Source: Galbibacter kalidii (GTDB taxonomy: Bacteria > Bacteroidota > Bacteroidia > Flavobacteriales > Flavobacteriaceae). Taken from it: DNA of 64,000 nt. Shown piece by piece: positions 32,594-59,600 of this stretch (positions are counted from its first letter, which is position 1; the number at the start of each line of letters is the position of its first letter). The translations under genes and the position numbers were made by a program. The stretch is taken from contig NZ_JAPFGA010000001.1 of NCBI RefSeq assembly GCF_026241135.1, forward strand, positions 372,001 through 436,000, given 5' to 3'. Below the pieces are notes generated by a model, which saw only the letters and a program-made list of their open reading frames with translations, did no database searches and was not told where the DNA came from.

Positions 32594-32631
32594 GCCCTCC
32601 TTCAGTGGGATTGAATAAAATTAAACTCGAA

Positions 32632-39635: not shown

Positions 39636-42600
39636 ATGAAAAATTTATTACCAATTGTGACCATCCTTTTTATGGCATATACATCAGTGTCCTGGTCGCA
39701 GACAAGAGAAATTTCAGGTAAGGTCATAGACGATTATAATGAACCTATGCCTGGAGCAACTATAATGTTGAAAGGTACTCAAAAAGGGACGACATCGGAT
39801 TTTGACGGGAATTTCGAAATTACCACTACACAAACTGATGCTATCTTGGTTGTCTCCTATATCGGGTATGAAACCAAAGAAATAAAGGTAGGCAGCGAGG
39901 ATGATTATACCATTCAGTTGTCCCCCGCCGCATCTAGTTTGGATGAAGTGGTGGTTATAGGTTATGGAACTGTAAAAAAGAGTGATTTAACAGGTTCTGT
40001 TGCATCAATGAACGCAGAGCAATTGGAAAAAACAAACAAGGTTGATGCTGTTTCTGCACTGCAAGGGCAGGCTCCCGGAGTGGTGATTCAACGTACTGAT
40101 AACAAACCGGGCTCGGGAGGCTTCAATATTCGTATCCGTGGCGCTAGTACTATTAATTCGAATGAGACAGCCAATCAGGGAGGTTTTAATCCTGGGCAAA
40201 ATCCACTTTTTATTGTGGACGGGATCTTTGTAGATGATATCTCCTTTCTGAATCCTTCTGATATTAATAGAATGGATATCCTGAAGGATGCTTCGGCTAC
40301 GGCTATATATGGATCAAGAGGAAGTAATGGGGTTGTGATCATAGAAACCAAGCGAGGTGAAAAAGGAGAAATGAAGGTTCGTTACAACAGTTATATAGGC
40401 CTTAAAGAAGCTTATCATTTACCATCGATCTACGATGGTCCTGGTTATGTGGAGTTTATAAAAGATGTTGTTGTAGGTAATGAATTTGCCCAGCTTACGG
40501 GAGATCTTAGTTACAGGAGAGACGATGTAATATTGTCCGATTATTTTGATACGGAAGAAATGCAAAATATTGCTGACGGAGTGAATACAGATTGGGTAGA
40601 CCTTGTATTGCAATCAGGGCTTCAGACCAATCATACCATTGACCTGAGTGGAGGAAATGAAAAAACTACCTATGCGTTTGGTCTAGGCTATACCAAGGAC
40701 GAAGGAACCATTGAAGGCGAAGATTTTCAAAGATACAACATAAGGGGAAGCTTAAAAAGCGACCTTACCAAATGGCTGAACGTGAGTTTTAACAACTACA
40801 TCACTCACGCCGTACAAAACACTGGAAGTTGGGAAGCCTTTAGAAGTGCATACCGATTAAAACCTATAGGTCGGCCTTATAATGATGATGGATCCTTGCG
40901 ATTTTTTCCGACACAAAAGGAGACCCAAATTACCAATCCGCTCTTTGATCCAAAGAATATAACTAAAGAGACCAAGTATTTGCAATATGTCGGAGATATC
41001 GCCTTAGAAATCCGTCCTTTGAACGGATTAAGTATAACTTCGAAATTTTCCCCTAATATTAAATATACGAGATATGGGGAATACCGAGGACTTTATTCAA
41101 AGAGCGTAAGTGGAAACCCGTCAAACAGAAGAGCTCAGGTAAACAATTTTAACTACTTCTCGTATTCCTGGGATAATATCTTCAATTATAAATATAACAA
41201 GGGAGTACATGCGATTGATGCTACAGCAGTAATTTCAAGATTTATGGAACGTTCTGAGGGGTACTATTCACAAGTCAGAAATTTTACTACGGATGAATAC
41301 CTATTCTACAACATAGATGCCGGACTTGATATCAGGGACCTATCCAGTGATTTCTCCAAACAGACCCTTGAGTCTTACACGGGAAGGATAAACTATAGCC
41401 TGAATGATAAATACCTGTTTACCCTTACAGGAAGGTACGATGGCTCTTCCATACTTTCAGATAAGAATAAATGGGCCTTTTTTCCATCAGCAGCTTTTGC
41501 TTGGAAGGTAATAGATGAAAAGTTCATGCAATCTCAACAACTGTTTTCTAATGCCAAGATCAGGCTTAGTTATGGTCAGACAGGTAACAATGGTCAGGGA
41601 GGAGGATTAATTCCGCTAGCTTCACAATCATTATTGGGTTCCAGCGCTACTAATTTAGGAGATGCTTCGGTATCGACCGCTTATATTACTGGCCTGGCTA
41701 ATGAAGACCTTACTTGGGAAAGAACTACCGAGACCAATTTAGGGTTTGACTTCGGATTGTTCAATAACAGAATTTACGGATCGGTGGACCTCTACAATAG
41801 AAAAAATACCGATATTATATTTTTCACACCGCTATCAACAGTTACTGGTTTTTCAGGAACATTCGACAATGTTGGAGAGTCAAGTAACAAAGGGATTGAG
41901 ATCGCATTGAACACCGTGAATATTGATACTGAGGATTTTACCTGGACCACCAATTTTAATTTCGCGTCCAACAAGAATACGCTTGACAAACTCTATGGAG
42001 GTGACGAGATCATTTTCAATGTACAAGGCACCAGCTTTATCCATAAGGTAGGAGAAGCCATCGGATCGATCTATGACTACGAAGCGGATGGTATCTGGCA
42101 GCTCGATGAAGTGGATGAGGCTGCAGTATACGGGCAACGTCCCGGTCAGGTGAGGGTGAAAGACCTTAATAATGATGGTATGATTACTCCTGATGAAGAC
42201 AGAAAGATCATAGGTAATGTTACACCTAAATGGACCGGGGGTATTACCAGTACTATGAATTATAAGAATTTTGACTTTTCTTTCTTTATTCATATCAGTC
42301 AGGGGAATAAGGTCTTGAGTAATTTCCATAACGGTTTTTCTTTTCCATGGGATACTGAGCCTACAAGAACTTTTAATGGATATGATGTGGATTACTGGAC
42401 ACCGGAAAACCCCACTAACAAATGGTACCAACCAGGGAACGGAGGTATATATCAACATGCCATAAAATATCGCGATGTGTCTTTTACAAAGGTGGGATAC
42501 ATCACCTTAGGATACAGGCTTCCTTCTACCATATTAGATAAGCTAAAGTTAGACAACCTAAGACTTTATGCCACAGTACAGAACCCTTTCATATTTACGG

Positions 42601-42698
42601 ATTATGATGGATGGGATCCTGAAAATGCAGGAAGAAACCACTGGGGTGCGGCATTTATGTCACGTACCATTATGACAGGTGTTAATTTAAGTTTCTAA
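39636..42698 (+). CDS. SusC/RagA-family TonB-dependent transporter of the second PUL
   Basis: The protein has 1020 residues. A signal peptide (1-22, SWSQ) is followed by a carboxypeptidase-regulatory domain (about 26-98: ISGKVIDDYNEPMPGATIML). The SusC signature SLDEVVVIGYGTVKKSDLTGS (about 103), a plug with LFIVDGIFVDD and SATAIYGSRGSNGVV, and a barrel ending in GVNLSF complete it. It imports the glycan or headgroup oligosaccharide of this locus across the outer membrane with energy from TonB. The SusD partner starts 27 bp downstream. It is the first gene of the predicted GIPC or AGP/GPI-anchor utilisation locus. Confidence 0.95.
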   Translation: MKNLLPIVTILFMAYTSVSWSQTREISGKVIDDYNEPMPGATIMLKGTQKGTTSDFDGNFEITTTQTDAILVVSYIGYETKEIKVGSEDDYTIQLSPAASSLDEVVVIGYGTVKKSDLTGSVASMNAEQLEKTNKVDAVSALQGQAPGVVIQRTDNKPGSGGFNIRIRGASTINSNETANQGGFNPGQNPLFIVDGIFVDDISFLNPSDINRMDILKDASATAIYGSRGSNGVVIIETKRGEKGEMKVRYNSYIGLKEAYHLPSIYDGPGYVEFIKDVVVGNEFAQLTGDLSYRRDDVILSDYFDTEEMQNIADGVNTDWVDLVLQSGLQTNHTIDLSGGNEKTTYAFGLGYTKDEGTIEGEDFQRYNIRGSLKSDLTKWLNVSFNNYITHAVQNTGSWEAFRSAYRLKPIGRPYNDDGSLRFFPTQKETQITNPLFDPKNITKETKYLQYVGDIALEIRPLNGLSITSKFSPNIKYTRYGEYRGLYSKSVSGNPSNRRAQVNNFNYFSYSWDNIFNYKYNKGVHAIDATAVISRFMERSEGYYSQVRNFTTDEYLFYNIDAGLDIRDLSSDFSKQTLESYTGRINYSLNDKYLFTLTGRYDGSSILSDKNKWAFFPSAAFAWKVIDEKFMQSQQLFSNAKIRLSYGQTGNNGQGGGLIPLASQSLLGSSATNLGDASVSTAYITGLANEDLTWERTTETNLGFDFGLFNNRIYGSVDLYNRKNTDIIFFTPLSTVTGFSGTFDNVGESSNKGIEIALNTVNIDTEDFTWTTNFNFASNKNTLDKLYGGDEIIFNVQGTSFIHKVGEAIGSIYDYEADGIWQLDEVDEAAVYGQRPGQVRVKDLNNDGMITPDEDRKIIGNVTPKWTGGITSTMNYKNFDFSFFIHISQGNKVLSNFHNGFSFPWDTEPTRTFNGYDVDYWTPENPTNKWYQPGNGGIYQHAIKYRDVSFTKVGYITLGYRLPSTILDKLKLDNLRLYATVQNPFIFTDYDGWDPENAGRNHWGAAFMSRTIMTGVNLSF

Positions 42699-42724: not shown

Positions 42725-44356
42725 ATGAAATATTATAAATTAATTATAGTACTGCTTACGGTGGGTATTTTCGCCGGTTGTGAGTCGTACCTTGAGGAAG
42801 AGAACAACTCATCGTTAAGTATCGAGACTGTCGAGTCAGACCCTGAGATTTTTAACCAGTTGGTGGCTTCAATCTATGAAAGGGCCAGGGAAACCACAAC
42901 AAAATACACAGGCGACATGTATTACGTCCTCGAAGATCTGGGAACCGATGTAGTAACAAGGGGGACAACAATTTCTGGAGCTGATGAGATCAATGATTAT
43001 GTGAACCTGAACTCAACAAACTGGGCTGTTGGTGTGTATTGGGGCAATCAGTATAGTGTGATCGCTGCAGCCAATGTAATTATAGACAACGCAGAAGAAA
43101 TGGAGGCTGTCCCTACGGATACTAAAACGAGGGGAATAGGGGAAGCCAAATTTTTCAGGGCTTTGTCATACTTCAATCTGGCGGAGAATTACGGTGGAGT
43201 GCCTTTGGTGCTCAACCAGGTCAGGTCTGCTGAGACGCAATATTTTCGTGCAAGCGAAGAAGAAGTCTATACACAAATAGTGCAGGATCTTCAAGAAGCC
43301 CTTACTGCAGTAGATGAAATCCCGGGGACATATGGAAGAGTATCCAAAGATGCTGTAAGACATCTCTTATCAAAAGTATTGCTTACCAGAGGGTACAAAT
43401 CTTTCGGTTCCGCAACTGATTACACTGAGGTTGCCGCTTTGGCAGAAACGGTTATCAGTAACCACGCCCTGGTTCCCTCTTTTGAAGAATTGGTGGATAT
43501 AGACAATCAAAGAAACCCAGAAGTAATATTTGCTTATTTGTTTGGAAGTAATTCGGTTAGCAGAGGTTGGGGGAATTCAAAACATATGATGTATAAGTTC
43601 AGATATTTTGATTATCCAGGAATGGTCAGGGGCGATAAATATCAAAAAGGCCTGGGGCCGGCGCCTACACCTTTTTACTACTCCCTTTTTGATGAGAATG
43701 ATGAAAGGGCGGAAGCTACATTCCGTAGGGTGATTTATGCTGACGAGGATTACGTAGCCAATGTAGGTGGTTCGGAAGTAAATGTAAGTGCTGGCGATAC
43801 TGCCATATATTTCCCGAAAACAGCATGGACCCAAGCCGAAATCGATGCGGTACCCTATGCGGTTATAAATCCTGAAACGTATTTTGAAAATGACGGTGTT
43901 ACTACGGTTCATTACCCAATGTTTAAAAAGTTTGATGACCCCGGGATTCCATTTACACAACCTGATCAATCTTCACAGGGAGAAAGGGATATGGTTATCA
44001 TGAGAGCAGGGGAAGCCTATTTAATTGCCGCAGAGGCCTATTTACAGTCAGGTAATACAACTGATGCCGCTGCTCGCCTTACTGCCTTAAGGTCCAGAGC
44101 GGGATTAACCACTACGGTGGCTCCCGGTGATGTTGACCTTGACTTTATCCTTGACGAAAGAGCCAGGGAGTTAACAGGAGAAGTAAACAGGTGGATGGAC
44201 TTGAAAAGAACAGGAAAACTCATAGAGCGTACCTTACAAAATAATCCGCATGCTGCTTTAAATAATGCGCTTAGTTCAAAACACCTTTTAAGGCCAATCC
44301 CTCAAACTGAAATAGATAATACTGGAGGAAGTATTGAACAAAATCCGGATTATTAA
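42725..44356 (+). CDS. SusD/RagB-family lipoprotein of the second PUL
   Basis: The protein has 543 residues. A lipobox (GIFAGC) is followed by ESYLEEENNSS. SusD traits include GEAKFFRALSYFNLAENYGGVPLVLNQV, a helical TPR-like region, and the C-terminal LDERARELTGEVNRWMDLKRTGKLIERT block ending IEQNPDY. It forms the lid of the SusC channel and captures substrate on the surface. A hairpin with a T-rich tail after it (44413-44442) may lower transcription into the enzyme genes. The ligand is unknown. Confidence 0.94.
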   Translation: MKYYKLIIVLLTVGIFAGCESYLEEENNSSLSIETVESDPEIFNQLVASIYERARETTTKYTGDMYYVLEDLGTDVVTRGTTISGADEINDYVNLNSTNWAVGVYWGNQYSVIAAANVIIDNAEEMEAVPTDTKTRGIGEAKFFRALSYFNLAENYGGVPLVLNQVRSAETQYFRASEEEVYTQIVQDLQEALTAVDEIPGTYGRVSKDAVRHLLSKVLLTRGYKSFGSATDYTEVAALAETVISNHALVPSFEELVDIDNQRNPEVIFAYLFGSNSVSRGWGNSKHMMYKFRYFDYPGMVRGDKYQKGLGPAPTPFYYSLFDENDERAEATFRRVIYADEDYVANVGGSEVNVSAGDTAIYFPKTAWTQAEIDAVPYAVINPETYFENDGVTTVHYPMFKKFDDPGIPFTQPDQSSQGERDMVIMRAGEAYLIAAEAYLQSGNTTDAAARLTALRSRAGLTTTVAPGDVDLDFILDERARELTGEVNRWMDLKRTGKLIERTLQNNPHAALNNALSSKHLLRPIPQTEIDNTGGSIEQNPDY

Positions 44357-44473: not shown

Positions 44474-46849
44474 GTGCAGAATAAGCCTTTGAGATCATTT
44501 CTGACAATAGCTTTAGATAGAAAATTAAAGAAGATAAAAAGAACTCGTATAAACGATCTGGTACGGATAAGTGTTATTCTTTTTTTTATAGTATCGTGTA
44601 AAGACAAACAAGAGGCTTTTACGCAAAAAGAACGATATGTAGATAAAGTTTATCCACTGCTCGATACTGAAAATTCAAGGTGGTTTTTCTTTACATCGGC
44701 AAGCCGGCCATTTGGGATGGTAAATTTAAGTCCGGATACGGAAATTAACGGTGCCTGGGGAAGCGGTTATAGATATAAAACAGATACCATCAAAGGTTTT
44801 AGCCATATTCACGCCTGGCAAATGTCCGGGCTTTCAGTAATGCCGGTAACAATTTCTGATAATAATGAAATCTTTACAGATTTCTATTCAAAATTCAGTC
44901 ATAAAAATGAATTGATAAGCCCGGGGTATCATTCAGTAGAACTGGATAGATATCGAATAAAGGCGGCATTAACAAGTACAAAACGGGTTGGATTCCATAA
45001 ATATGTGTTTTCAGAGAATAAAAAGGGCGGGATCCTTTTTAATTTAAACACCGTTTTAGGCCCTTGTGAAAATATGGAGGGAACGCTAGAAAAAACAGGA
45101 ATCAGTACCTTGTCAGGTAAACTTGTAGCAGCTCCAACACATAGGCGCCCAAAACCATTAACCATCTATTTTAATGCTCAGTTAAACGTCCCCATAGTCT
45201 CTGTTGAGCACGATTCTGATACAGGAAATTATTTAGTGGGCTTAGATAGCATAAACGATGCTGTTTTAATGAAAGTAGGTATTTCATATACTTCGATAAA
45301 AAATGCAGTAAATAACATGCAAAAAGAATTACCGCACTGGAATTTTAATCAGGTGGTCGAAGATTCCAAAATTGAATGGGATGGGTTATTGAGCAGAATT
45401 AAAGTTGAAGGAGGGACAGAAAAGGATCAAAAACGGTTTTACACAGATCTTTGGCATGCTTTACAAGGCAGAAGAATTATTAATGATGCAAATGGAGCAT
45501 ATCCTGATAATACAGGAAAGCAATTCAGAGTTGGTCAATTGCCATTAAATTCAGATGGAACACCCAAATTCAATCATTATAATTCAGATTCATTTTGGGG
45601 GGCACAATGGACTATAAACACCTTATGGGGACTTGTTTATCCTGAGATCATGAATGAATTCACCCTTTCATTAATGCAATATTATCAAGATGGGGGGATG
45701 ATTCCTCGTGGCCCTTCTGCGGGGAATTACACTTTTGTGATGACTGGGGCTTCGACGACCCCATTTATGGTAAGTGCCATTCAAAAAGGAATTGTAAAAA
45801 ATGATTTGGAAGCCATTTATAAAGCCCTTAAAAAAAACCACATACCGGGAGGTATTATGGGAAAGGCGGGATATGAACACAATACGGATATTGGCGGAGG
45901 CTTAAAGTATTACTTGGAAAACGGATATGTTCCTTACCCGCTTCCTGAAGGCGGTGGTTTTGGAGGCCACCAGGATGGTAGTAGCCAAACCATGGAATAT
46001 GCGTACCAGGATTGGACTTTAGCACAGTTGGCAAAGAAATTAAAACATATCCAGGACTATCATTATTTTATGAAAAGGGCTGAAAATTATAAAAATGTAT
46101 TTAACGAAGAAGTTGGTTGGATGGCTCCTAAGGATATTGACGGGAAGTGGAAATTAGATTTCGATCCGTATCAATATGAAAACGGATTTGTAGAGTCCAA
46201 TGCTGCACAGTCAACTTGGTTTGTACCTCACGATATAAAAGGCTTGGCATCCTTAATGGGAGGAGATAAAAAAGCAGCGGAAAAACTGAATAATCAATTT
46301 ATAGCCGCTCAGAAATCAGGATTTACATCGGGAAATTCCCATGAAGCTGAACTCCATCCTGAATACAGTAGGATTCCTATCAATTATGGAAATCAACCAT
46401 CAATACAAACAGCATTTATATTCAATAAATTAGACAGGCCTGATTTAACGCAATATTGGTCAAGAAAGGTTGTTGATAGTGTTTTTTCAGACCTGAACAG
46501 TTCAAGTGGGTACAACGGTGATGAGGATCAAGGTTTAATGGGAAGTTTGGCAGTATTGATGAAGATAGGATTGTTTCAAATGAACGGTGGTACAGAAGAG
46601 AATCCGGAATATCAAATAGGAAGCCCAATCTTTGATAAGATAACTATTGAACTTAATAAAGATTACTACCCTGGGGAAGTATTTGAAATAAAAAGCATAA
46701 ATAACAATTCAGATAATATCTATGTAGATGATATTAAACTAAACAATATTCCAATTAAAGGGCAAAAAATTATGCATCAGGATATTGTAGAAGGAGGCAC
46801 TTTAACTTTGGAAATGACATCGTCTCCTTCTAAAAGGGGAAAGGAATAG
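44474..46849 (+). CDS. divergent GH92-family glycosidase lipoprotein
   Basis: About 791 residues. No in-frame ATG precedes the lipobox (VILFFIVSC), so the start must be GTG (44474) or another weak codon such as an internal TTG/CTG. It is related to calcium-dependent GH92 alpha-mannosidases: SRPFGMVNLSPDTEINGAWGSGYRY, TIKGFSHIHAWQMSG, GFVESNAAQSTWFVPHDI and YGNQPSIQTAF follow the GH92 order. Several usually invariant patches are changed: GGHGHTFPGA is missing, SHTHLSGTG reads SHIHAWQMSG, and GNEPSHH reads GNQPSIQ. The Glu of the VEGNAWQ-type acid motif is kept as VESNAAQ. An exo-alpha-glycosidase with altered specificity, perhaps on alpha-mannose linked to glucuronic acid or glucosamine, is inference. 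Confidence 0.78.
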   Translation: MQNKPLRSFLTIALDRKLKKIKRTRINDLVRISVILFFIVSCKDKQEAFTQKERYVDKVYPLLDTENSRWFFFTSASRPFGMVNLSPDTEINGAWGSGYRYKTDTIKGFSHIHAWQMSGLSVMPVTISDNNEIFTDFYSKFSHKNELISPGYHSVELDRYRIKAALTSTKRVGFHKYVFSENKKGGILFNLNTVLGPCENMEGTLEKTGISTLSGKLVAAPTHRRPKPLTIYFNAQLNVPIVSVEHDSDTGNYLVGLDSINDAVLMKVGISYTSIKNAVNNMQKELPHWNFNQVVEDSKIEWDGLLSRIKVEGGTEKDQKRFYTDLWHALQGRRIINDANGAYPDNTGKQFRVGQLPLNSDGTPKFNHYNSDSFWGAQWTINTLWGLVYPEIMNEFTLSLMQYYQDGGMIPRGPSAGNYTFVMTGASTTPFMVSAIQKGIVKNDLEAIYKALKKNHIPGGIMGKAGYEHNTDIGGGLKYYLENGYVPYPLPEGGGFGGHQDGSSQTMEYAYQDWTLAQLAKKLKHIQDYHYFMKRAENYKNVFNEEVGWMAPKDIDGKWKLDFDPYQYENGFVESNAAQSTWFVPHDIKGLASLMGGDKKAAEKLNNQFIAAQKSGFTSGNSHEAELHPEYSRIPINYGNQPSIQTAFIFNKLDRPDLTQYWSRKVVDSVFSDLNSSSGYNGDEDQGLMGSLAVLMKIGLFQMNGGTEENPEYQIGSPIFDKITIELNKDYYPGEVFEIKSINNNSDNIYVDDIKLNNIPIKGQKIMHQDIVEGGTLTLEMTSSPSKRGKE

Positions 46850-46916: not shown

Positions 46917-49145
46917 ATGAAAGGTCTTGGACTTATATTGTTAGTGATTGGCCTGTTTCTTTTAAATGGATGTGAAAAAAAAGTAGCTCCTAAAGAGATT
47001 GTCGGTCAGAACCGGGCGTTGATTGAGCGAATAGTTCCCGATCATGCATCTCAGTTTATAGTTGAAACAATAGATTCTGATAGTACGGATAGCTTTGAAA
47101 TTGAATCCAGAGATGATAAAATCGTTCTTCGGGGAAATAATGGGGTGTCTATAGCTTCAGCCTTGTATTATTATCTGAGCGAATATGCCCATTGTCAGAT
47201 TACCTGGAACGGAACCAATCTTGATCTTCCGGAAAAATTACCATCAGTACCAGGACTCGTGCATAAAGATACTCCTTATGAGTATCGGTATTATCTTAAC
47301 TATTGTACTTTCAATTATAGCATGAGTTGGTGGGATTGGCTCCGTTGGGAAAAGGAAATAGACTGGATGGCCCTGCACGGTATAAACATGCCACTGGCGA
47401 TTACCGGAGAAGAGTATGTTTGGGATCAAGTGTACCGGTCATATGGATTTACAGATGAAGACCTAGATCCGTTCTTTAGCGGCCCTGCTTATTTTTCCTG
47501 GTTCTGGATGGGGAATCTAGATGGTTGGGGTGGTCCATTACCTATGAGTTGGAAAGAAAGTCATCGCGATTTACAACAAAAAATATTGAAACGACAACGT
47601 GAATTAGGGATGAAACCGGTATTGCCCGCATTTACAGGTCATGTTCCAACCTCTTTCAAAAAGTATTTCCCAAATGCCAAACTCAAAAGGACGGACTGGG
47701 GGAACGATTTTGACGACACCTACATTCTCGATGCTGATGACCCTTTGTTTGCCGAAATTGGCAAGAAATTTCTGGAAGTACAAACCGAAGTTTACGGAAC
47801 GGATCATCTGTACTCTGCTGACACCTTTAATGAAAATGAACCACCATCTGATGATCCTCAATATTTATCGGGGTTAAGCAGTAAAGTATATGAAGGAATG
47901 AAAGCAGCAGATCCTGAAGCCGTTTGGGTAATGCAGGGTTGGTTATTTTACAGTCATCGTGATTTTTGGAAAGGTCCTCAAATAAAAGGGCTTTTAGATG
48001 CTGTTCCTGACAACAGGATGATCATTCTAGATCTCGCTACCGAAATTGAACCGGTGTGGAAGCGAACAGATGCCTTTTATGGGAAACAGTGGATATGGAA
48101 CATGCTTCATAATTTTGGCGGTAACATTAGCCTTTTTGGCCGTATAAAGACTGTGGCAACCCAGCCTGCAACTGCACTAAACGATTCCGATTCTGGCGAG
48201 ATGAAAGGAATCGGTCTTACTATGGAGGCCATAGAGCAAACCCCCGTACTCTATGAATTAATGACAGATAATACTTGGCGCAATACACCGATTGAATTGG
48301 ATCAATGGCTCAAAAAATATATCAGGAACCGTTATGGAAAAACGAATGCCGAACTGGAAGAAGCTTGGAATATTTTGGTAAATACGGTATACAATGGACA
48401 AACCATTCGGGATGGAGCCGAATCAATTATTGTGGCACGCCCCACCTTTGAAGGGTATCGTCGTTGGGCCCGTACAAAACTCAATTATGCAGCTGAAGAT
48501 TTACTTCCGGCTTGGGATCTTTTGATCAAAATGATTCCTGAATGTAAAACCTCAGATGGGTTTAGGTATGATCTGGTCGATCTGACCCGCCAAGTATTGG
48601 CAAATTATGCCTTGCCACTACAGCAACAAATAGCTAAAGCTTATCAAGAGAATGATAAAACAGCTTTTGAAAAATACAGTTCTGAATTCCTCGAATTGAT
48701 TGATGATATGGACCGTCTCTTGGCAACCCGAAAAGATTTCTTGTTGGGGACTTGGCTAGATGATGCTCGTAGTTGGGGACAGACTCCGGAAGAGAAAGAT
48801 TTATACGAGCAGAATGCGCGTGATCTTATTACCCTTTGGGGAGATGCTAATAACCGCTTGCACGAATACAGCAACCGTCAATGGAGCGGACTTTTGAAGG
48901 GGTTTTATAAACCGCGTTGGGAACAATTTTTTGCTGATGTGAAAAGTGAATGGGGGGAATTCGATCAGGAAAAATTCGACGATAAGATCAAAAACTGGGA
49001 ATGGAAATGGGTAACCGGGCATGAAGAATACCCTATTGAACCGAAAGGTAGTGCTACGGAGATAGCCAATGAAATTCACAAAAAATACCGCGGACGGATT
49101 GAACCTATCACCGAACTTTTACCACAAATAAAATACAACTACTAA
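46917..49145 (+). CDS. GH89 alpha-N-acetylglucosaminidase lipoprotein (NAGLU-like)
   Basis: The protein has 742 residues with a lipoprotein signal (GLFLLNGC). The N-terminal domain (about 25-105) is followed by the NAGLU catalytic barrel. Signature blocks are YYLNYCTFNYSMSWWDW, EIDWMALHGINMPLA, the YFSWFWMGNLDGWGGPLP aromatic pocket and SADTFNENEPPSDDP, with Glu306 as the probable general acid. A helical C-terminal domain follows. It removes terminal alpha-linked GlcNAc; NAGLU-type enzymes do not act on unacetylated glucosamine. The HGSNAT-like acetyltransferase gene begins 1 bp after its stop, suggesting coupled action. It is probably periplasmic or outer-membrane anchored. Confidence 0.93.
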   Translation: MKGLGLILLVIGLFLLNGCEKKVAPKEIVGQNRALIERIVPDHASQFIVETIDSDSTDSFEIESRDDKIVLRGNNGVSIASALYYYLSEYAHCQITWNGTNLDLPEKLPSVPGLVHKDTPYEYRYYLNYCTFNYSMSWWDWLRWEKEIDWMALHGINMPLAITGEEYVWDQVYRSYGFTDEDLDPFFSGPAYFSWFWMGNLDGWGGPLPMSWKESHRDLQQKILKRQRELGMKPVLPAFTGHVPTSFKKYFPNAKLKRTDWGNDFDDTYILDADDPLFAEIGKKFLEVQTEVYGTDHLYSADTFNENEPPSDDPQYLSGLSSKVYEGMKAADPEAVWVMQGWLFYSHRDFWKGPQIKGLLDAVPDNRMIILDLATEIEPVWKRTDAFYGKQWIWNMLHNFGGNISLFGRIKTVATQPATALNDSDSGEMKGIGLTMEAIEQTPVLYELMTDNTWRNTPIELDQWLKKYIRNRYGKTNAELEEAWNILVNTVYNGQTIRDGAESIIVARPTFEGYRRWARTKLNYAAEDLLPAWDLLIKMIPECKTSDGFRYDLVDLTRQVLANYALPLQQQIAKAYQENDKTAFEKYSSEFLELIDDMDRLLATRKDFLLGTWLDDARSWGQTPEEKDLYEQNARDLITLWGDANNRLHEYSNRQWSGLLKGFYKPRWEQFFADVKSEWGEFDQEKFDDKIKNWEWKWVTGHEEYPIEPKGSATEIANEIHKKYRGRIEPITELLPQIKYNY

Positions 49146-49146
49146 T

Positions 49147-50289
49147 ATGAAAAAAGCATTTCAGCTAAAATCCGATCGTTTTCTCTCTCTTGATGTATTC
49201 AGGGGGCTGACCATAGCCTTGATGATCGTGGTAAATACCCCGGGGACAGGAGCCAAAATGTATCCTTATCTGGTACATGCTCAATGGTTCGGTTTTACTT
49301 TGGCTGATTTGGTTTTTCCGTCATTTCTGTTTGCTATGGGGAACGCCATGAGCTTTTCTATGGAAAAAATGAAGCAAGCTTCCGTTGGGGCGTTTTGGAA
49401 AAAAATAATTAAAAGAACGCTTATTATCTTTTTATTGGGCTATCTGATGTATTGGTTTCCTTTCTTTGAAATAAATGCCCGGGGGGATTGGATGTTGAAA
49501 CCCATAGCTGAAACCCGTATTATGGGAGTGTTGCAACGTATCGCACTTTGCTACTTTTTTTCCGCCATTATTTTTTATTACTTATCTAAAAAAGCGACCG
49601 TGATCATCTCCGGTATTGTGTTGTTGTCTTATTGGGCCATTCTATATATATTTGGCAATCCGGGAGCTGAATTGGATATAGCCGGCAATGCTGGTGCTAA
49701 ATTAGACATGGCTGTTCTAGGGTTAGGACATATATACAAAGGAGATGTTATCCCTTTTGATCCAGAAGGTATTTTAAGTACCTTACCTTCGATTGTAAAT
49801 GTTATAGGGGGGTACTTGGTGGGAGTTTTTATCCGGAAGAAGGGAAAATCCTTTGAAGGCATATCTAAATTGTTAATGGCAGGATTTATTTTGGCCTGTC
49901 TGGCGCTTTTCTGGGACCTGACCTTCCCGATATCCAAAAAATTATGGACGAGCTCTTTTGTGTTGTTTACCATAGGTCTCGATTTATCAATTATGGCTAT
50001 ACTCATCTATGCTATTGAGTTTCGAAAAATAAAAAAAGGAGTGAGGTTTTTTGATGTTTTCGGTAAGAACCCACTTTTTATATATCTTTTTTCAGAGTTG
50101 TTTTTTATTACTTTGAGATTGATTCCTACCCCTTCCGGACATGATGTTTTTGAGTGGGTAAGCGAGCGGATTTTTCAGCTAGTTATTCCCGGTCCCTTAG
50201 GTTCTTTAACTACGGCACTAGTTTTTACATTGCTGTGTTGGAGCCTTGGATGGTGGCTCGATAAAAAAAGGATTTATATTAAAATCTAA
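49147..50289 (+). CDS. HGSNAT-like membrane acyltransferase (DUF5009/DUF1624 type)
   Basis: The protein has 380 residues with about ten hydrophobic segments. The family start motif is clear (RFLSLDVFRGLTIALMIVVNTPG, then HAQWFGFTLADLVFPSFLFAMG). Relatives include human HGSNAT, which carries acetyl from acetyl-CoA across the lysosomal membrane onto terminal alpha-glucosamine, and bacterial NagX/YeiB proteins. Translational coupling to GH89 (1-bp gap) mirrors the human lysosomal pair HGSNAT and NAGLU. The inferred job is transmembrane N-acetylation of periplasmic glucosamine-ended oligosaccharides so that GH89 can cleave them. Bacterial members are not well characterised, so the acceptor is uncertain. 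Confidence 0.82.
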   Translation: MKKAFQLKSDRFLSLDVFRGLTIALMIVVNTPGTGAKMYPYLVHAQWFGFTLADLVFPSFLFAMGNAMSFSMEKMKQASVGAFWKKIIKRTLIIFLLGYLMYWFPFFEINARGDWMLKPIAETRIMGVLQRIALCYFFSAIIFYYLSKKATVIISGIVLLSYWAILYIFGNPGAELDIAGNAGAKLDMAVLGLGHIYKGDVIPFDPEGILSTLPSIVNVIGGYLVGVFIRKKGKSFEGISKLLMAGFILACLALFWDLTFPISKKLWTSSFVLFTIGLDLSIMAILIYAIEFRKIKKGVRFFDVFGKNPLFIYLFSELFFITLRLIPTPSGHDVFEWVSERIFQLVIPGPLGSLTTALVFTLLCWSLGWWLDKKRIYIKI

Positions 50290-50538: not shown

Positions 50539-53529
50539 ATGATAAAACAAACACTAACCGTCATTTTTGTACAGCTATTTTTGTTGCAGCTGCAAGTGCA
50601 TGCCCAATCTGTAGAAAGTCAATCTTTTCAACTAGTAGGCAAAAATCAGCGTTGTCCGATTTTGATAAGTAAAAACGATGCAAAGGTAGTACAGATTGCA
50701 GCTGAACTTTTTGTGGGAGACATCCATACCATCACAGGACAAAACCCCGACATTAAATATAAGGCCCCGAAGAAAGCTAATCAGATTGTGCTAGCCGGAA
50801 CTCTAGGTAAAAATCCATGGATTGACCAACTCGTTATAGATGGAAAGGCTGATGTCACTTCCATTAAAGGTAAATGGGAAAGCTGGTCCGTTCAGCTTAT
50901 TGAAAACCCTTTGAAAGGAGTAGAAAAAGCCCTGGTTATTATTGGAAGTGATCGTAGAGGGACTGCTTACGGAATTCTGGAGTTATCCCGAATGATGGGA
51001 GTCTCGCCATGGGAATGGTGGGCCGATGTACATCCTGATAAAAAAACTCAAATCACCCTTGATATTGAAAACAAAACCTATGGATCCCCGTCTGTAAAAT
51101 ATCGTGGCTTGTTTTTAAATGATGAAGACTGGGGGCTTCAACCATGGGCTGCAAAGGTTTATGAACCTGAAACCGGGGATATAGGTCCGAAGACGTATGC
51201 AAAGATATTTGAACTGCTCCTGCGTTTAAGAGCCAATACTATTTGGCCTGCGATGCATTCATCCACCAAACCCTTTTATTCTTATCCGAAAAATAAACAG
51301 GTGGCAGACGATTATGCCATTGTGATAGGAACCTCTCATCCCGAACCCATGTTGATAAACGTTAATACGGAATGGGACCAGGAAACGATGGGGGAATATC
51401 GATACGATACCAATTCAGAAACGATAAAAAAAATGTTTATCAAGCGGGTAAATGAAACAGGGCGTTATGAAAATATTTATACTACCGGAATGCGTGGTAA
51501 ACACGATTCTCCTATGATTGTAGGTGATCATGATATCAATTTTCAGGTAAAATTACTGGAACAGGTAATAACAGACCAAAGAGAAATCCTAAAACAGGCT
51601 GATAATAACAAAAGCCTGGAATCCATTCCTCAGGTATTTATTCCTTACAAGGAAGTTTTGAATTACTACCAACACGGTATGGAGTTACCGGAAGATATCA
51701 CCCTAATGTGGACAGATGATAATTATGGATATATTAGAAGGCTTAGTGATCCGGGAGAACAAAAGCGAAGTGGAGGAGCTGGAGTTTATTATCATACTTC
51801 ATATTGGGGCAGGCCACACGATTATTTGTGGTTAAACTCTACCAATCCTGTCTTATTATGGGAAGAAATGTCAAAGGCATATCAGTTTAATGCCAGGAAT
51901 ATCTGGATCCTGAATTGTGGAGATATCAAACCCCATGAGTATAATATAGAACTGTTTATGGACATGGGATGGAATATGAAGGACTTTGGAAAAAGTGTTG
52001 ATGTACGTAAACACATGAAAAATTGGTATGAAAGACTATTTGGAAAAAACAATGCATCACAGTTAACAGAACTATTTTATGAATATTACCGACTGGCTTT
52101 TATAAGAAGGCCTGAGTTTATGGCGTGGAGCCAAGTAGAACCCGTTACAAAAGTCCGACCTAGCGAAATGTCCCAAATACATTATGGCGATGAGGTCGGA
52201 AAAAGAATTATGACCTATAATAACCTGATAAAAAAGGTAGATTCAATTTCCCCTAAAGTTCCATCCAACAGGAATAGTGCTTTTTATGAGTTGGTTACCT
52301 ACCCGGTAAAAAGTGCAGCATATATGAACCTGAAGTGGTTGCACGCGAATAAAAATTGGTTTACCGCTCAGCAGGGAAGAGCAAGTGCGTTATATCATGG
52401 GAAACATGCTGTTATGGCCTATAACGAGATAGCACAACTTACAGAATATTTCAATAACAGTCTAGAAAACGGAAAATGGCGTCATATCATGAATCGTTCT
52501 CCCCGGAATCTGCCGGTCTTTAAAGAACCCGTTATCGCTACCCCATCAATAAAGGAGGAACCGGTAATAGGGATAGCTCTTAAGGGCTATGAAATGGAAC
52601 TTAATCACAGAGTCAATAATAGTCATGCAAACGTTTTACCGGTATTTAATGCCTATACCCAACCTCAATATTATCTCGATATTTTTTTGAAAGGAAAAGG
52701 GGAAAAATATTGGGAGGTAACACCTAAAACCGATTGGATCAAACTGTCAAAATCTTATGGAAAATTGGATACCGATCATCCCGAAGAAAGAATATATGTT
52801 GATCTTGATTGGAATAAAGTACCTCAGGGGACAGGTATAAAGGAACCTCCATTAGGTCATGATCATCAGCTGATTCCCCCGGGATATAAGGTGGATGGTG
52901 CGATCGATATTTCAACAAAAGATACTGCGATAACGCTGGGAGTTTTGGCTTATAACCCTAAATTTGAAGACTTACTCAAATTTGAAGGCTTTGTCGAAGA
53001 TCAGGGGTATGTTAGTATAGATGCCGAAAACTTTACGGATCATAAACAGACTAAGGAAACATCATGGAAGATTATAGAAGGGCTTGGGTATACTGGTAGT
53101 GTTGTTAAGACCATGCCTGAGAAGGCAAATTCAATTGAAGAGACAAGTGAAATTATAACAAACAGCCCGGTACTGGAATATGATTTTTATACCTTTAATC
53201 ATGGAGCAGCTGAAACGTTTGTCCAAATTGTCCCGACCCATGCTGTATATCCTGGGAAAAAGGTAAGGTTGGCCGTAGGAATTGATGATGCCATGCCCGT
53301 AATTTTAGATTATCAAACCCACGGAAGAAGTGAGGAGTGGAAGCAAAACGTACTTAAAAATGCAGCTGTTAAATCAGTCACCGACATAATTGAAAAACCC
53401 GGGAAACATAAGCTGAAAATCTGGATGGTCGACCCCGGAGTAATGGTCGATAGAATACTAATAGATTTAGGTGGGTGGAAAGAAAGCTACGCTTTCCCGG
53501 AACAAACCATGATAAAACATGAGAAATAG
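50539..53529 (+). CDS. GH115 alpha-glucuronidase
   Basis: The protein has 996 residues with a signal peptide (about 1-22, QVHAQ). Domain order is normal for GH115: an N-terminal alpha/beta domain (to about 180), then the TIM-barrel region starting YRGLFLNDEDWGLQPWA and including MHSSTKPFYSYPKNK, GTSHPEPM, YTTGMRGKHD, LMWTDDNYGYIRRL and YHTSYWGRPHDYLWLN. A helical region and a C-terminal beta-sandwich (SIDAENFTDHK) follow. The family removes alpha-1,2-linked (4-O-methyl) glucuronic acid, usually from xylan. No xylanase, GH10/GH11 or xylose gene is near, so another alpha-1,2-glucuronoside is likely; inositol as aglycone is my inference. It overlaps the phosphoesterase gene by 11 bp. Confidence 0.92.
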   Translation: MIKQTLTVIFVQLFLLQLQVHAQSVESQSFQLVGKNQRCPILISKNDAKVVQIAAELFVGDIHTITGQNPDIKYKAPKKANQIVLAGTLGKNPWIDQLVIDGKADVTSIKGKWESWSVQLIENPLKGVEKALVIIGSDRRGTAYGILELSRMMGVSPWEWWADVHPDKKTQITLDIENKTYGSPSVKYRGLFLNDEDWGLQPWAAKVYEPETGDIGPKTYAKIFELLLRLRANTIWPAMHSSTKPFYSYPKNKQVADDYAIVIGTSHPEPMLINVNTEWDQETMGEYRYDTNSETIKKMFIKRVNETGRYENIYTTGMRGKHDSPMIVGDHDINFQVKLLEQVITDQREILKQADNNKSLESIPQVFIPYKEVLNYYQHGMELPEDITLMWTDDNYGYIRRLSDPGEQKRSGGAGVYYHTSYWGRPHDYLWLNSTNPVLLWEEMSKAYQFNARNIWILNCGDIKPHEYNIELFMDMGWNMKDFGKSVDVRKHMKNWYERLFGKNNASQLTELFYEYYRLAFIRRPEFMAWSQVEPVTKVRPSEMSQIHYGDEVGKRIMTYNNLIKKVDSISPKVPSNRNSAFYELVTYPVKSAAYMNLKWLHANKNWFTAQQGRASALYHGKHAVMAYNEIAQLTEYFNNSLENGKWRHIMNRSPRNLPVFKEPVIATPSIKEEPVIGIALKGYEMELNHRVNNSHANVLPVFNAYTQPQYYLDIFLKGKGEKYWEVTPKTDWIKLSKSYGKLDTDHPEERIYVDLDWNKVPQGTGIKEPPLGHDHQLIPPGYKVDGAIDISTKDTAITLGVLAYNPKFEDLLKFEGFVEDQGYVSIDAENFTDHKQTKETSWKIIEGLGYTGSVVKTMPEKANSIEETSEIITNSPVLEYDFYTFNHGAAETFVQIVPTHAVYPGKKVRLAVGIDDAMPVILDYQTHGRSEEWKQNVLKNAAVKSVTDIIEKPGKHKLKIWMVDPGVMVDRILIDLGGWKESYAFPEQTMIKHEK

Positions 53530-55339
53530 AGGGGTGTTAAAAGGGATTCTATTAGCATGCAGTTTACTTGTTCTCTCATGTGAGAACAAAAAAACTGTTC
53601 CTCATAAAAAAGTAAAAATAGCCTTTTTGGCCGATGTCCATCTACAAGATATTTATGCTAGCTTTTCTGATAATGAATATAAAGGTGTAATAAATCCGGT
53701 TACGGGAAAATATAACACCATACGGACCATGGGGACGCAACTACGCTCCACCAGACTCTTTAACGAAAATTACTTTGCGCTTTTAGCGGCTTTGGACGAT
53801 GCAGTAAGGAGAGAAGTGGATCTAGTAGTATTTCCTGGGGATTTCAGTGATGATGGGCAACCTGTAAATCTCAGAGCGCTTAGAAAGATACTACAGAAAT
53901 ACAGTCAAGATTATGGGACGAAATTCTTTCTCACTACAGGAAATCATGATCCGGTGAAGCCATTTGGAGAACCCGGAGGAAAAAAGGATTTCCTGGGTGA
54001 AGGAGGCATTGAACAATCGGTTTACAGTCAAGCGGGAATGTACACTCCCGAAAAAGGGGATCATCCCCCTGTAATTACCAAAGACATAAGAAAAGCGGGG
54101 TATGTTGAAATATTGAACGAACTCAAACCGTTTGGATTTACCCCCAATAATAGTTATTTATACTGGGAAACTCCTTTTACAGACTATGATTATGATAATT
54201 ATACCATTGAAGCTGCAATAAAAGCATCTGAATTAGAGCAAAGGAAGATGACTTTCCCCGGTACAGATATATGTATTCCCAATCTGAGTTATCTGGTGGA
54301 GCCAGTTGAAGGGGTTTGGTTAATGGCCATAGATGCTAATGTGTACATCCCTGAGAAAAGTGAGTTCGATAAAGATGAAACCGTTTATTTTGGCGGATCG
54401 GGTATCGGGTACAACAATGTGTTGCCCCATAAAAAGTATTTGATTAATTGGGTAAAGCGTGTAAGTGAGGCTGCCAAGGCAAATCATAAAAAACTTATCG
54501 CATTCAGTCATTACCCGATGGTAGATTATAATGATGGCAGTACCCCGCAATTGAAATCGTTGTTCGGAGAAGAAAATATGCAATTGTATAGGGTTCCTGA
54601 TTCTTTAGTGGCAGAAACTTTTTCTAATGCCGGGATCAGTATCCATTTTGCCGGACATATGCATCTTAATGATACAGGGGTTTTTACATCGTCGCAGGGG
54701 AATACTTTATTCAATATTCAGGTGCCTTCGTTGGCAGCCTACTTGCCGGGATATAAATTGTTGACTCTTCATTCAAAGAATGAATATGAAATAGAGACCG
54801 TACAATTGGATTCGGTTCCTTCTTTTAATGAGCTTTTTCCCTTGTACAAACAAGAGTATACATGGTTGGAAAAAAATGAGGATAAAGACATCTGGGATAA
54901 GGAGCTGTTAAAGGCGAAAGATTATAAGGCTTTTACGGAAGGACACTTAAAGGAGTTGGTCCGTTTGCGCTTCCTCCCCCGGGAGTGGCCCGAATCTTTA
55001 TTGGGGGTACTTTTAAAAAGTTCGGGAAAAGAGTTGTTGCTGCTCAATAACCAACGGTCAATATCCTCGGGTACGCATCTTGAATCGTATGAAAGCTGGA
55101 CGGGATTTGAAATGATTTATGATTTTTACAGACTACAATATGGCGATGAACTATCTGTTCCTGAGATAGGAAATGATAGAATAGAGGAATACCTGAAAGT
55201 TTGTAAAAATCTGGAACAGAGCGAAAATAAAAGCCTCAGACTTTGGGCCGAAATTTTTCAGAAAGTTTTACATGGAGAGCCTGCCGGTCATTTCAAAATA
55301 GATATACTACAATCAAAACTTGAAAAAATAAACGATTAA
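53519..55339 (+). CDS. calcineurin-like metallophosphoesterase lipoprotein
   Basis: The protein has 606 residues with a lipoprotein signal (LLACSLLVLSC). The complete set of metallophosphoesterase metal motifs is present: FLADVHLQD (about 35), VVFPGDFSDDG (about 100), TTGNHDP (about 141), SHYPMVD and HFAGHMHLND (about 376). Characterised relatives hydrolyse phosphomonoesters or phosphodiesters, including sphingomyelin- and nucleotide-type substrates. Its start overlaps the GH115 stop by 11 bp, a sign of translational coupling. In this locus it could split inositol-phosphoceramide, a GPI phosphodiester, or inositol phosphate. That role is inference; the fold assignment is firm. The C-terminal 200 residues have no family I can name. 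Confidence 0.88.
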   Translation: MRNRGVLKGILLACSLLVLSCENKKTVPHKKVKIAFLADVHLQDIYASFSDNEYKGVINPVTGKYNTIRTMGTQLRSTRLFNENYFALLAALDDAVRREVDLVVFPGDFSDDGQPVNLRALRKILQKYSQDYGTKFFLTTGNHDPVKPFGEPGGKKDFLGEGGIEQSVYSQAGMYTPEKGDHPPVITKDIRKAGYVEILNELKPFGFTPNNSYLYWETPFTDYDYDNYTIEAAIKASELEQRKMTFPGTDICIPNLSYLVEPVEGVWLMAIDANVYIPEKSEFDKDETVYFGGSGIGYNNVLPHKKYLINWVKRVSEAAKANHKKLIAFSHYPMVDYNDGSTPQLKSLFGEENMQLYRVPDSLVAETFSNAGISIHFAGHMHLNDTGVFTSSQGNTLFNIQVPSLAAYLPGYKLLTLHSKNEYEIETVQLDSVPSFNELFPLYKQEYTWLEKNEDKDIWDKELLKAKDYKAFTEGHLKELVRLRFLPREWPESLLGVLLKSSGKELLLLNNQRSISSGTHLESYESWTGFEMIYDFYRLQYGDELSVPEIGNDRIEEYLKVCKNLEQSENKSLRLWAEIFQKVLHGEPAGHFKIDILQSKLEKIND

Positions 55340-55376: not shown

Positions 55377-58300
55377 ATGAGTAATCCCAAGTATACATAT
55401 TTAATAGTGATGGTCTTTTTTATGATCAAGCTTGCGAGTGCCCAAAATATAGCATTTGAGCACTACAATGATTATGATGGGCTTTCTCATAATTCTGTCA
55501 GGTATATTGTTCAGGATGAAAACGGATTTTTGTGGTTGGGAACTTTTGCCGGTTTAAACAGGTTCGATGGTTACGAGTTTAATATATATTCCAGCAATGC
55601 AAAGCAACCTCATAAACTGGCAAATGATGAAGTAACCGCATTGGCCCTAGATAACCAAGCCAGTGTTTTATGGATTGGTACACGAAATGGTTTGATACGA
55701 TTTGAACTAAAAACACACACCTTTACTTCCTTTTTACCGGAAAAGGATAATATTTATAGCCTACCCGATCATGAAATTCGCTCTTTGTACTTAGATAATT
55801 TTAATCGCATATGGGTTGGTACCAAAAATGAAGGGGTATATCACATGGATAAAAAATCCGGGAGGTTTACTAAGGTTGACATAACTGGAACTAGTTATGT
55901 AAGATCAATTGTAGGGGATAGCACCGGAGCTATTTGGATAGGATCATATCTGGAAAGTGGAATAACAAAAGTAGATTTAAATAACAATGGAACAATAAAG
56001 AGTACAAAGCAATATACGCTTAATATACCCGATTCTGATGAAAAAAACCCATATGTGAATTTTATTTACGAAGATCATAAGTCGGATATATTTATAGGAA
56101 CCCGTCAGGGACTGTATAAACTGGACAAGGAGAGTGATAAATTTGAAAATTTATACATTAAAAATGAAAGCCGAAGGGAAAAACTAGGCCCCTATTTTTT
56201 ATCAGTAGCAAGATCTCCCGAGGGGCAATATTGGGTTGGAACTTTGGGAGGATTGTTAGTGTGTGATAGTCTGGAAGAGATTGAAAAGGGAAATTATCAG
56301 TGGCATTTTCCGGTACTTTCCAATAATTTGTCGCTCGTCGATAATTTGGTGTATGCCTTGTATTTTGACAAGTCCGGAGTTCTTTGGATAGGAACGGAAG
56401 ATGGCTTGGATAAATACAATCCCTACGACAACCAATTCAGACTCAATAAGGATATTTCCAGATCTCTTGATAATCAGGTGCCCTGGATCCGGGGTTTCTC
56501 CAAAACCATAGATGATAAGGTAGTGGTGGCTACGCGTTACAACGGACTTTTTATTCAGGAGGGAGAAAATTTTTCACCGTTTTTTAATCAACAACGTTAT
56601 GATATTGCCAGTATATATTCAAATGACGGGATTAATTTTTATTGCGGGCTTTGGAATGGCAGACTCCTTATATACAATGACCAAACTAAAAGGTCTCAAG
56701 TTGTAGACATAGGGTTTAATAACAGACCGGTGCTTGCATTTGAAAGCATAGACGACCATACTCTTATCGTAGGCTCTTTTGGCGAAGGAGCAGTTTATTT
56801 TGACAAAAATACTCGTGAAAGCACCCCTCTTGCAGGAAATGTGCTGAAAGGAGTTGAGGTCAATCAAATCGCTGTCGATGTTTTTAAAAATGTCTGGTTT
56901 GCTACGGAGAATGGAGTACTTAGACTGAATACTAAAACCAATGTGTTAAAAACTTATGCATCGAGTAAAAATTCAGGAATCCCAAATGAACATGTAAGCG
57001 GTATTTTAATAGACCAAAAGCAGAATATATGGGCAACAACTCGAAAGGGACTGGCAATTTACAATGAGGAAATTGATGATTTTAATGCGGTTGATGGATT
57101 AGGTGAACTGGAAGGAAGTTGGATAACCGATATTGTAAATGTAGATGATAACCTTTGGTTAAATCTTAATAATAACGGTTTGGCCAGATTTAATCCTGAA
57201 AGGGGGGAATTGGATGTTTACAGGGTGAAAAGTGGTAACAGGCTGGATGTCTTCAGCTCGAGCGGGTTTTTTAAGTTCAATGATTCAAGGATCTATGTAG
57301 CCGGGAAAAAGGGAGTGATTTATTTTTCACCAGATCGGATCAAGACCAATAAATGGACACCTTCCCCTGTAATTACCGAATTTAAGGTGCAAAGTAAAGA
57401 AGTGCTACCCGGAGATATTATAAATGGACAGACTATTCTTAACAAAGACATTAATTACAGCAAAGAAGCTACGTTAACCTATGACGACCGTAATTTTTCG
57501 ATTGAATTCTCTTCCCCGTCCTTTACGGATGCAAAACTCAATAAGTTTGAATACATGCTGGAAGGTTTTGACGACAAGTGGACACAAACTAACAGTAATT
57601 CAAGAACGGTGCAATACACGAATTTGCCATTTGGAGAATATCTCTTTAAGATAAAAGCGGCAAACAGCAGTGGTGTATGGAGTAATGAAGAGGTATATAG
57701 AATTGAGGTATTGCCCCCGTTTTGGTTAACATACAAAATGATTTTTTTAATTCTGTTTGTGACCTCTGTCATTTTCTATTTCGTACGTCGTGAAATAAAA
57801 AACAGGTTAAAGTTAAAAAGGGAACTGCTTGTTGAAAAAGTAGAACGGGAACGCGATGAAAAACTGAATAAAGAAAAGATCCGCTTTTTTACGAATCTTT
57901 CTCATGAATTACGTACCCCACTTACGTTAATTCTCGGATCTGCCAAGCAACTTTTGATAGAGAATCAGGATCAATATAGTGAACAACAAACAAAAAAATT
58001 CGGACTGATCCATCAAAATGCAAACCGATTATTGTTACTCGTAAATCAAATACTTGATTTTAGGAAAGCCGAAAAAGGAAAATTGGAATTAAAAGTGTCT
58101 AAAACTGATATACGCAAGCATACTTTAAAAACTTTTAATTCTTTTAATGAACTAGCAGAAGATAAAGGTGTGCAATTGCATTTTAATTGTGAACACGAAA
58201 AAATAACCGGTTGGTTAGATCGGGATAAATATGACAAAATTCTTTATAATCTATTATCCAATGCGGTAAAATTCACCCCCAAATATGGAAATGTGGATGT

Positions 58301-59408: not shown

Positions 59409-59600
59409 TAATTGTTTGAAAATTATTACTTTAATGGATGCGTAAAGTTTGTCCATGTATTTGAAAAAAGAGTCCATTGACTTTCTGCTTTCTAACACTA
59501 TTTTGGTTCATTGTTAACCCATTTCTGAAAGGAGACCAAAGCATGCAAGGAAAATTGAAGCAAAATTAATTTGATTGCGTATAATCAACTGTATGAAATT

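Follow-up and report, generated by a model that had tools for sequence, protein, structure and literature searches.

Human lysosomes contain two enzymes that act in sequence on glycan ends: the membrane acetyltransferase HGSNAT (TMEM76) acetylates a terminal α-glucosamine (GlcN), after which NAGLU hydrolyses the α-N-acetylglucosamine (GlcNAc) next to glucuronate (GlcA). We examined a gene pair resembling these enzymes in a 64,000-nucleotide stretch of the Galbibacter kalidii genome (contig NZ_JAPFGA010000001.1, positions 372,001 to 436,000 of the forward strand), which we call the window and whose own numbering is used throughout. The two genes, encoding a GH89 glycosidase and an HGSNAT-like acyltransferase, share with the human pair both folds, the catalytic residues and the proposed order of action. 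They differ in that they are bacterial and 1 bp apart, the acyltransferase has no N-terminal luminal domain, and the pair lies in an inositol and α-glucuronate locus without heparan enzymes. We propose that this locus probably targets the glycan headgroup of glycosylinositol phosphorylceramides (GIPCs) from plants, where these sphingolipids are the main lipid of the outer plasma-membrane leaflet. Among plant GIPCs, the one described best is GlcNAc(α1-4)GlcA(α1-2)inositol-1-P-ceramide, and deacetylation is believed to produce its GlcN form (PMC9113257).

Several described systems resemble parts of this locus. NagX (Shewanella SO_3504) is a putative transmembrane glucosamine acetyltransferase that was assigned in 2022 on the basis of fitness data from five bacteria, among them Echinicola vietnamensis of the Bacteroidota (PMC9007349). 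Like the window protein, NagX is a short bacterial HGSNAT-domain protein containing the His, and it was proposed to acetylate glucosamine in the periplasm from cytoplasmic acetyl-CoA. However, the substrate of NagX is free glucosamine and its gene frequently lies in chitin operons, whereas the window protein is paired with GH89 and scores far below the cut-off of the NagX model. Proteins of the DUF5009 family have been judged to be HGSNAT orthologues, with their function unproven (PMC12423673). In Bacteroides thetaiotaomicron, the GH89 enzyme Bt3590 cuts GlcNAc-α1,4-GlcA and is active on heparosan oligosaccharides (PMC8225759). The GH115 enzyme BtGH115A of the same organism is inactive on xylan, and its assignment to arabinogalactan has been questioned since arabinogalactan GlcA is β-linked (PMC9063842). 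Neither enzyme is reported as part of a GIPC pathway in the portions of the literature examined. Finally, a GIPC phospholipase C of Botrytis cinerea exemplifies microbial attack on plant GIPCs with release of inositol-phosphate glycans (PMC11496612), although this enzyme is fungal and makes a single cleavage, and the portion of that source considered here describes no catabolic pathway from glycan to inositol.

Results

According to the original prediction, the GH89 and membrane acyltransferase genes are separated by 1 bp. The open reading frames confirmed this spacing:

46917..49145, + strand: GH89 α-N-acetylglucosaminidase, lipoprotein (Pfam NAGLU, human NAGLU 4xwh, catalytic residues, lipobox)
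49147..50289, + strand: predicted HGSNAT/NagX-like transmembrane acyltransferase (Pfam HGSNAT_cat, NagX model, human HGSNAT sequence and fold, invariant His44)

The 742-amino-acid GH89 protein contains full-length NAGLU_N (PF12971), NAGLU (PF05089) and NAGLU_C (PF12972) domains, all above the Pfam cut-offs, and its TIM barrel matched NAGLU with an E-value of 1.7e-148. The closest solved structure was human NAGLU 4xwh (E 1e-175), followed by CpGH89 (2e-138). Counting along the alignment, catalytic residues Glu306 (codon 47832-47834) and Glu437 (codon 48225-48227) correspond to human E316 and E446, and both were invariant across all 87 related GH89 sequences aligned. A NAGLU-type active-site loop was rejected as a means of proving specificity for GlcA, since the enzyme retains a Trp at the position of CpGH89 Trp685 and the loop therefore does not discriminate.

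The acyltransferase is a 380-amino-acid multi-pass membrane protein. It passed the cut-off of Pfam HGSNAT_cat (PF07786; 31.2 bits versus 22) and narrowly missed the gathering cut-off of DUF5009 (PF16401; a marginal 24.5 bits versus 25). Thus, the original 'DUF5009-type' label was one step off, and HGSNAT_cat/NagX-like is the better name for the protein. The NCBIfam NagX equivalog NF046061 matched at 160 bits (E 8.5e-47), below its cut-off of 480. The existence of this glucosamine N-acetyltransferase model, together with the NagX assignment itself (PMC9007349), partly pre-empts the idea that the pair would be the first to give a bacterial protein of this kind a function. The acyltransferase also matched the human HGSNAT sequence at E 2e-20. 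Its Asn30 (codon 49234-49236) and His44 (codon 49276-49278) align with human Asn286 and His297, which the HGSNAT structure paper, with its shorter numbering, lists as N258 and H269 (PMC11357348); the window protein therefore retains the two residues whose absence had been named as grounds for abandoning the original prediction. The roles of the catalytic His, the acetyl-CoA-contacting Asn and a DxxR motif in HGSNAT have been described (PMC11357348, PMC12423673), and the motif is present in the window protein as D16xxR19. An AlphaFold model of the acyltransferase had a mean pLDDT of 81, with the loop containing H44 at low confidence, and human HGSNAT was its top PDB match by Foldseek (E 1e-13, TM 0.77 by query length).

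The catalytic His was invariant in 56 of 56 acyltransferases aligned. These proteins fell into two types at GH89 loci, type a (that of the window) and type b, which are about 32% identical. The acetyl-CoA-contacting Asn was kept in all 23 type-a proteins and was His in all 33 type-b proteins. The substituting His of the type-b proteins, which occur in loci L050-L088, lies near the invariant catalytic His. A type-b relative (L071) was also under the NagX equivalog cut-off (351 versus 480 bits). The other HGSNAT-domain genes examined in the Galbibacter genome (L039, L040) adjoin unrelated genes.

The GH89 alignment yielded 80 loci in named genomes as a comparison set. A survey of GH89 neighbours, which the original prediction had proposed, identified an HGSNAT-like acyltransferase gene within 10 kb in 55 of these loci, hereafter called pair-bearing, and as the immediate same-strand neighbour in 41, mostly with gaps of a few bases. 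From these frequencies we conclude that the tight coupling of GH89 with the acyltransferase is not due to chance. Many of the 80 loci come from plant or soil genera, for example Mucilaginibacter, Pedobacter (including isolates Leaf170 and Leaf194), Flavobacterium and Chitinophaga.

A wider survey covered 396 Bacteroidia genomes containing 28 GH89 genes, 32 genuine myo-inositol oxygenase (MIOX) genes and 135 acyltransferases of the window protein's profile. An acyltransferase was present within 10 kb of 12 of the 28 GH89 genes. Because only 12 of the 135 acyltransferases were near a GH89, we conclude that this acyltransferase family is general and that the GH89-linked members represent a special use. 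In a phylogeny of 108 acyltransferases, linkage to GH89 required six changes, at least five of which were forced by well-supported branches. The changes could be gains or losses, and their scatter on the tree favours repeated recruitment of the acyltransferase to GH89. As a control, we inspected 40 acyltransferase loci picked for lying away from GH89. MIOX, GH28, GH115 and phosphatidylinositol phospholipase C (PI-PLC) genes were absent from the vicinity of all 40, and a GH92 gene was found near one. A GH20 or NagB-PIG-L gene was near eight of the 40, in line with an amino-sugar role of the family. We also observed fusions of glucosamine-6-phosphate isomerase with PIG-L (GlcNAc-PI de-N-acetylase type) near GH89 or HGSNAT-like genes (L029:7010-8935, L059:15488-17404, L165, L167-L169 and L172).

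Nine GH89 loci without the acyltransferase (L103, L105, L110, L114, L116, L117, L119, L120 and L128) are among those in which GH89 often neighbours an endonuclease/exonuclease/phosphatase-family protein with a weak PGAP2IP match, possibly another phosphoinositol-glycan context. GH89 can also occur in tandem in loci of this kind. Separately, two GH89-acyltransferase pairs that have no MIOX alongside (L121 and L122, genomes G364 and G653) belong to a family that is probably Bacteroidaceae (f46), and L121 still contains GH92, GH28, SusC and phosphoesterase genes.

The pair sits at the centre of a polysaccharide utilisation locus in which a SusC/SusD pair, carbohydrate-active enzymes and a regulator are all encoded on one strand. 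The other genes of the locus are:

39636..42698, + strand: SusC-like TonB-dependent transporter (Pfam Plug, CarboxypepD_reg)
42725..44356, + strand: SusD-like glycan-binding lipoprotein (Pfam SusD_RagB; lipobox)
44474..46849, + strand: GH92 α-mannosidase with lipoprotein signal, predicted to remove mannose (Man) (Pfam GH92 E 1e-131; TIGR01180; lipobox)
50539..53529, + strand: GH115 α-glucuronidase with signal peptide, predicted to remove GlcA from inositol (Pfam GH115 E 1e-130; nearest structure BtGH115A 5by3)
53519..55339, + strand: calcineurin-like metallophosphoesterase, predicted to act on inositol phosphate (Pfam Metallophos; homologues in related loci)
55377..59408, + strand: hybrid two-component regulator (HTCS) (read from translation; homologues in related loci)
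59571..60476, + strand: MIOX, no signal peptide seen (Pfam MIOX E 1e-109; mouse MIOX E 1e-84)
60512..62080, + strand: sodium:solute symporter (SSF), predicted importer of inositol or a released sugar (Pfam SSF; NCBIfam NF007790 over cut-off)
62111..63151, + strand: GH43 glycosidase, with outer arabinose (Ara) as predicted target (Pfam GH43)

The match to mouse MIOX was full length and identical at the positions that we take to be metal ligands. The N-terminus of the metallophosphoesterase resembles a lipoprotein signal, and homologues are present in loci L044-L047 and L084 and in those of G002 and G018. By eye, the HTCS translation contains sensor repeats, a histidine kinase, a receiver and an AraC-type end. 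Some 17 kb past MIOX, the genome also carries the uronate-pathway gene uxuA (L023). No heparinase-type lyase, GH88 or sulfatase was found among the locus genes, PL13-type lyases not having been searched for; GH88-family genes and the sole Hepar_II_III_C (PF07940) match of the genome, a marginal one at 26 bits, lie outside the locus. A consensus promoter scan was uninformative, with 67 matches versus 59 expected by chance.

Genes for inositol and glucuronate use accompanied the pair in related loci. MIOX was present in 22 of the 55 pair-bearing loci, compared with 2 of 25 GH89 loci without the acyltransferase and none of the 40 control loci. The corresponding counts for pair-bearing loci and loci without the acyltransferase were 27 versus 0 for GH28, 33 versus 1 for GH92, 16 versus 1 for the metallophosphoesterase, 17 versus 0 for the SSF symporter, 5 versus 0 for PI-PLC and 5 versus 1 for GH115, with GH115 or GH28 in 29 of the 55. 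In five Flavobacterium/Wenyingzhuangia GH115 loci, a PI-PLC gene (PF16670, E 4e-127) lies between the acyltransferase and GH115 genes; the encoded protein weakly matches solved phosphoinositide phospholipases C. GH35 (13 loci) and GH2 β-galactosidases, GH43, GH51-type arabinofuranosidases and α-galactosidases also recur. Across the 396 genomes, MIOX and GH89 co-occurred in 10 of the 19 genomes with GH89 (p=1.6e-7), and 8 of the 32 MIOX genes were within 30 kb of a GH89. By our own rough estimate, a given gene of a 5-Mb genome would fall within 30 kb of a second one by chance in about 1% of cases.

Other genomes of the same family contained similar sets. In L038, whose GH89 is 38% identical to that of the window, genes for UxuA, acyltransferase, SSF, MIOX, GH89, HTCS, GH115 and GH28 are found together in a different order. 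In G002 and G018, GH89 is 19-27 kb from MIOX and the acyltransferase. In G002, the retrieved genes of this interval all point the same way in a single run that includes GH92, SusCD, a homologue of the window phosphoesterase and the HTCS, and the retrieved parts of G018 look the same. The GH28 proteins of pair-bearing loci (L060, L058, L046 and others) were nearest to rhamnogalacturonidase models, below their cut-offs. The idea that GH28 and GH115 are mutually exclusive stand-ins for one glucuronidase step was rejected, as L046, L047, L084 and L038 carry both.

Elsewhere in the window, a gene run at 18186-39245 fits the use of hydroxyproline-rich plant glycoproteins. It encodes DHDPS-family, aldehyde dehydrogenase, proline racemase-family (hydroxyproline epimerase-like) and D-amino acid oxidase-type proteins, two DPPIV peptidases, an Xaa-Pro aminopeptidase-type M24, a GH127 and an arabinofuranosidase. 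A DUF5695 protein (32605-35331; 908 aa, 1307 bits) and a DUF6055+DUF4859 protein (14784-16682) are encoded among plant-glycan genes.

Discussion

The genes present, their catalytic residues, the fold, the conserved pairing and the link to MIOX lead us to infer the following substrate, order of steps and compartments. The GIPC head would be (Ara, galactose (Gal), Man)-GlcN/GlcNAc-α1,4-GlcA-α1,2-inositol-1-P-ceramide. Outer sugars would be trimmed by GH43 (Ara) and GH92 (Man), and in relatives by GH43/GH51 (Ara) and GH35/GH2 (Gal). The acyltransferase would then N-acetylate terminal α-GlcN across the inner membrane with cytoplasmic acetyl-CoA, and GH89, which needs GlcNAc, would remove the acetylated residue. 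GH115 could subsequently take GlcA off inositol, and the phosphoesterase, with PI-PLC in relatives, would break down the inositol phosphate. The symporter would import inositol or sugar, and MIOX would oxidise inositol to GlcA, which would enter uronate catabolism (UxuA) along with the GlcA released by GH115. It is likely that the acyltransferase serves the GH89 step in this lysosome-like, acetylate-then-cleave manner; because GIPC heads supply mixed GlcN and GlcNAc, the acyltransferase would have a reason to exist. In a bond-by-bond check, GH43, GH92, GH89 with the acyltransferase, GH115 and MIOX were present, and cleavage at the lipid phosphate had no assigned enzyme in this genome. Many host genera come from plants or soil, which counts for the GIPC reading.

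We did not find a bacterial GIPC utilisation locus, or any report of bacterial recycling of GIPC heads, in the open-access literature, to which the search was confined and in which absence is weak evidence; none of the papers searched combined the full GIPC name with 'polysaccharide utilization' or joined GIPC, sphingolipid, gut microbiota and glycoside hydrolase. On balance, we give somewhat better than even chances that this is the first described bacterial GIPC-headgroup pathway, repeatedly assembled in plant and soil Bacteroidota, with acetylate-then-cleave for GlcN forms, an α-glucuronidase acting on GlcA-inositol, and MIOX replacing the Iol pathway. Phosphatidylinositol mannosides, which are without glucosamine, and mycothiol, which needs no SusCD, GH92 or GH115, were dropped as inositol-glycan targets.

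Several observations weigh against a GIPC target. Besides the window and L038, only five of the 55 pair-bearing loci have GH115, such that many others would need GH28 as the α-glucuronidase, and the nearest named GH28 families act on galacturonides. Our search found no PF16670 PI-PLC in the Galbibacter genome, leaving the lipid-cleavage step unassigned there. Every type-b acyltransferase has His in place of the acetyl-CoA-contacting Asn. The GH89 Trp that aligns with CpGH89 Trp685, as counted by hand along the alignment, corresponds to a residue linked to specificity for mucin-type GlcNAc-α1,4-Gal (PMC8225759). In addition, some GH89-acyltransferase pairs (Bacteroidaceae, L121/L122) are without MIOX, and the loci are related, so that locus counts are not independent.

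The main rival is that the locus targets the glycan of glycosylphosphatidylinositol (GPI) anchors, for example those of plant arabinogalactan proteins, with the structure (Gal)Man3-GlcN-inositol-P-lipid. GH92 would take the mannoses, the acyltransferase would acetylate an always-free GlcN, GH89 would cut GlcNAc from inositol, PI-PLC would free inositol phosphate, and MIOX would use the inositol. This scheme accommodates inositol use, the frequency of GH92 in pair-bearing loci, the 13 loci with GH35 and the five with PI-PLC, and the neighbouring 17-39 kb region resembles hydroxyproline-rich glycoprotein use. To our knowledge, however, GPI glycans are without α-glucuronate, whereas GH115 is present in the window, in L038 and in the PI-PLC loci, more than half of the pair-bearing loci have GH115 or GH28, and uxuA is inside the L038 operon. 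GIPCs are also far more abundant as a membrane component, and we consider a GPI target unlikely.

It is improbable that the acyltransferase acts like NagX on free periplasmic glucosamine before uptake, uncoupled from GH89. The NagX fitness data (PMC9007349), the E-value against the NagX model and the eight control loci near GH20 or NagB-PIG-L genes speak for such a role. Yet GH89 frees GlcNAc rather than GlcN, so that an acetylase specific for GlcN would be idle in this locus. Moreover, the tree shows recurrent pairing with GH89, and the window protein has only a third of the bits that the NagX cut-off demands.

We think it quite improbable that the target is plant arabinogalactan or a similar GlcA-bearing cell-wall glycan with MIOX as a mere neighbour. 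The recurrence of GH43, GH35 and GH2 would suit such a glycan, but the linkage to MIOX, PI-PLC and the symporter is recurrent as well, and we know of no α-GlcNAc in arabinogalactan for GH89 to act on. The nearest solved GH115, BtGH115A, was reported on arabinogalactan, although the β-linkage of GlcA there makes that assignment itself doubtful (PMC9063842).

Heparan- or heparin-like chains, to which the lysosomal analogy of the original prediction pointed, are a very improbable target: of all solved structures, those of the human lysosomal enzymes come nearest to the two proteins, and Bt3590 acts on heparosan oligosaccharides (PMC8225759), but the locus has an inositol and α-glucuronate set instead of a lyase, GH88 or sulfatase, the one Hepar_II_III_C match in the genome is marginal, and heparan does not require MIOX, PI-PLC or GH92. 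What stands of that analogy is HGSNAT-like transfer to terminal α-GlcN followed by GH89.

If the GIPC reading is true, it would provide a substrate for GH89, GH115 and acyltransferase genes that currently carry mucin, xylan or heparan annotations. GlcA-inositol would be an alternative substrate for BtGH115A, which could explain the puzzling xylan-inactive clade to which this enzyme belongs. The recurrence in bacteria of the lysosomal logic of HGSNAT followed by NAGLU would offer short models of HGSNAT. Finally, a MIOX route for inositol would be added in a phylum of which only 3% of species were seen to have Iol clusters (PMC9430895).

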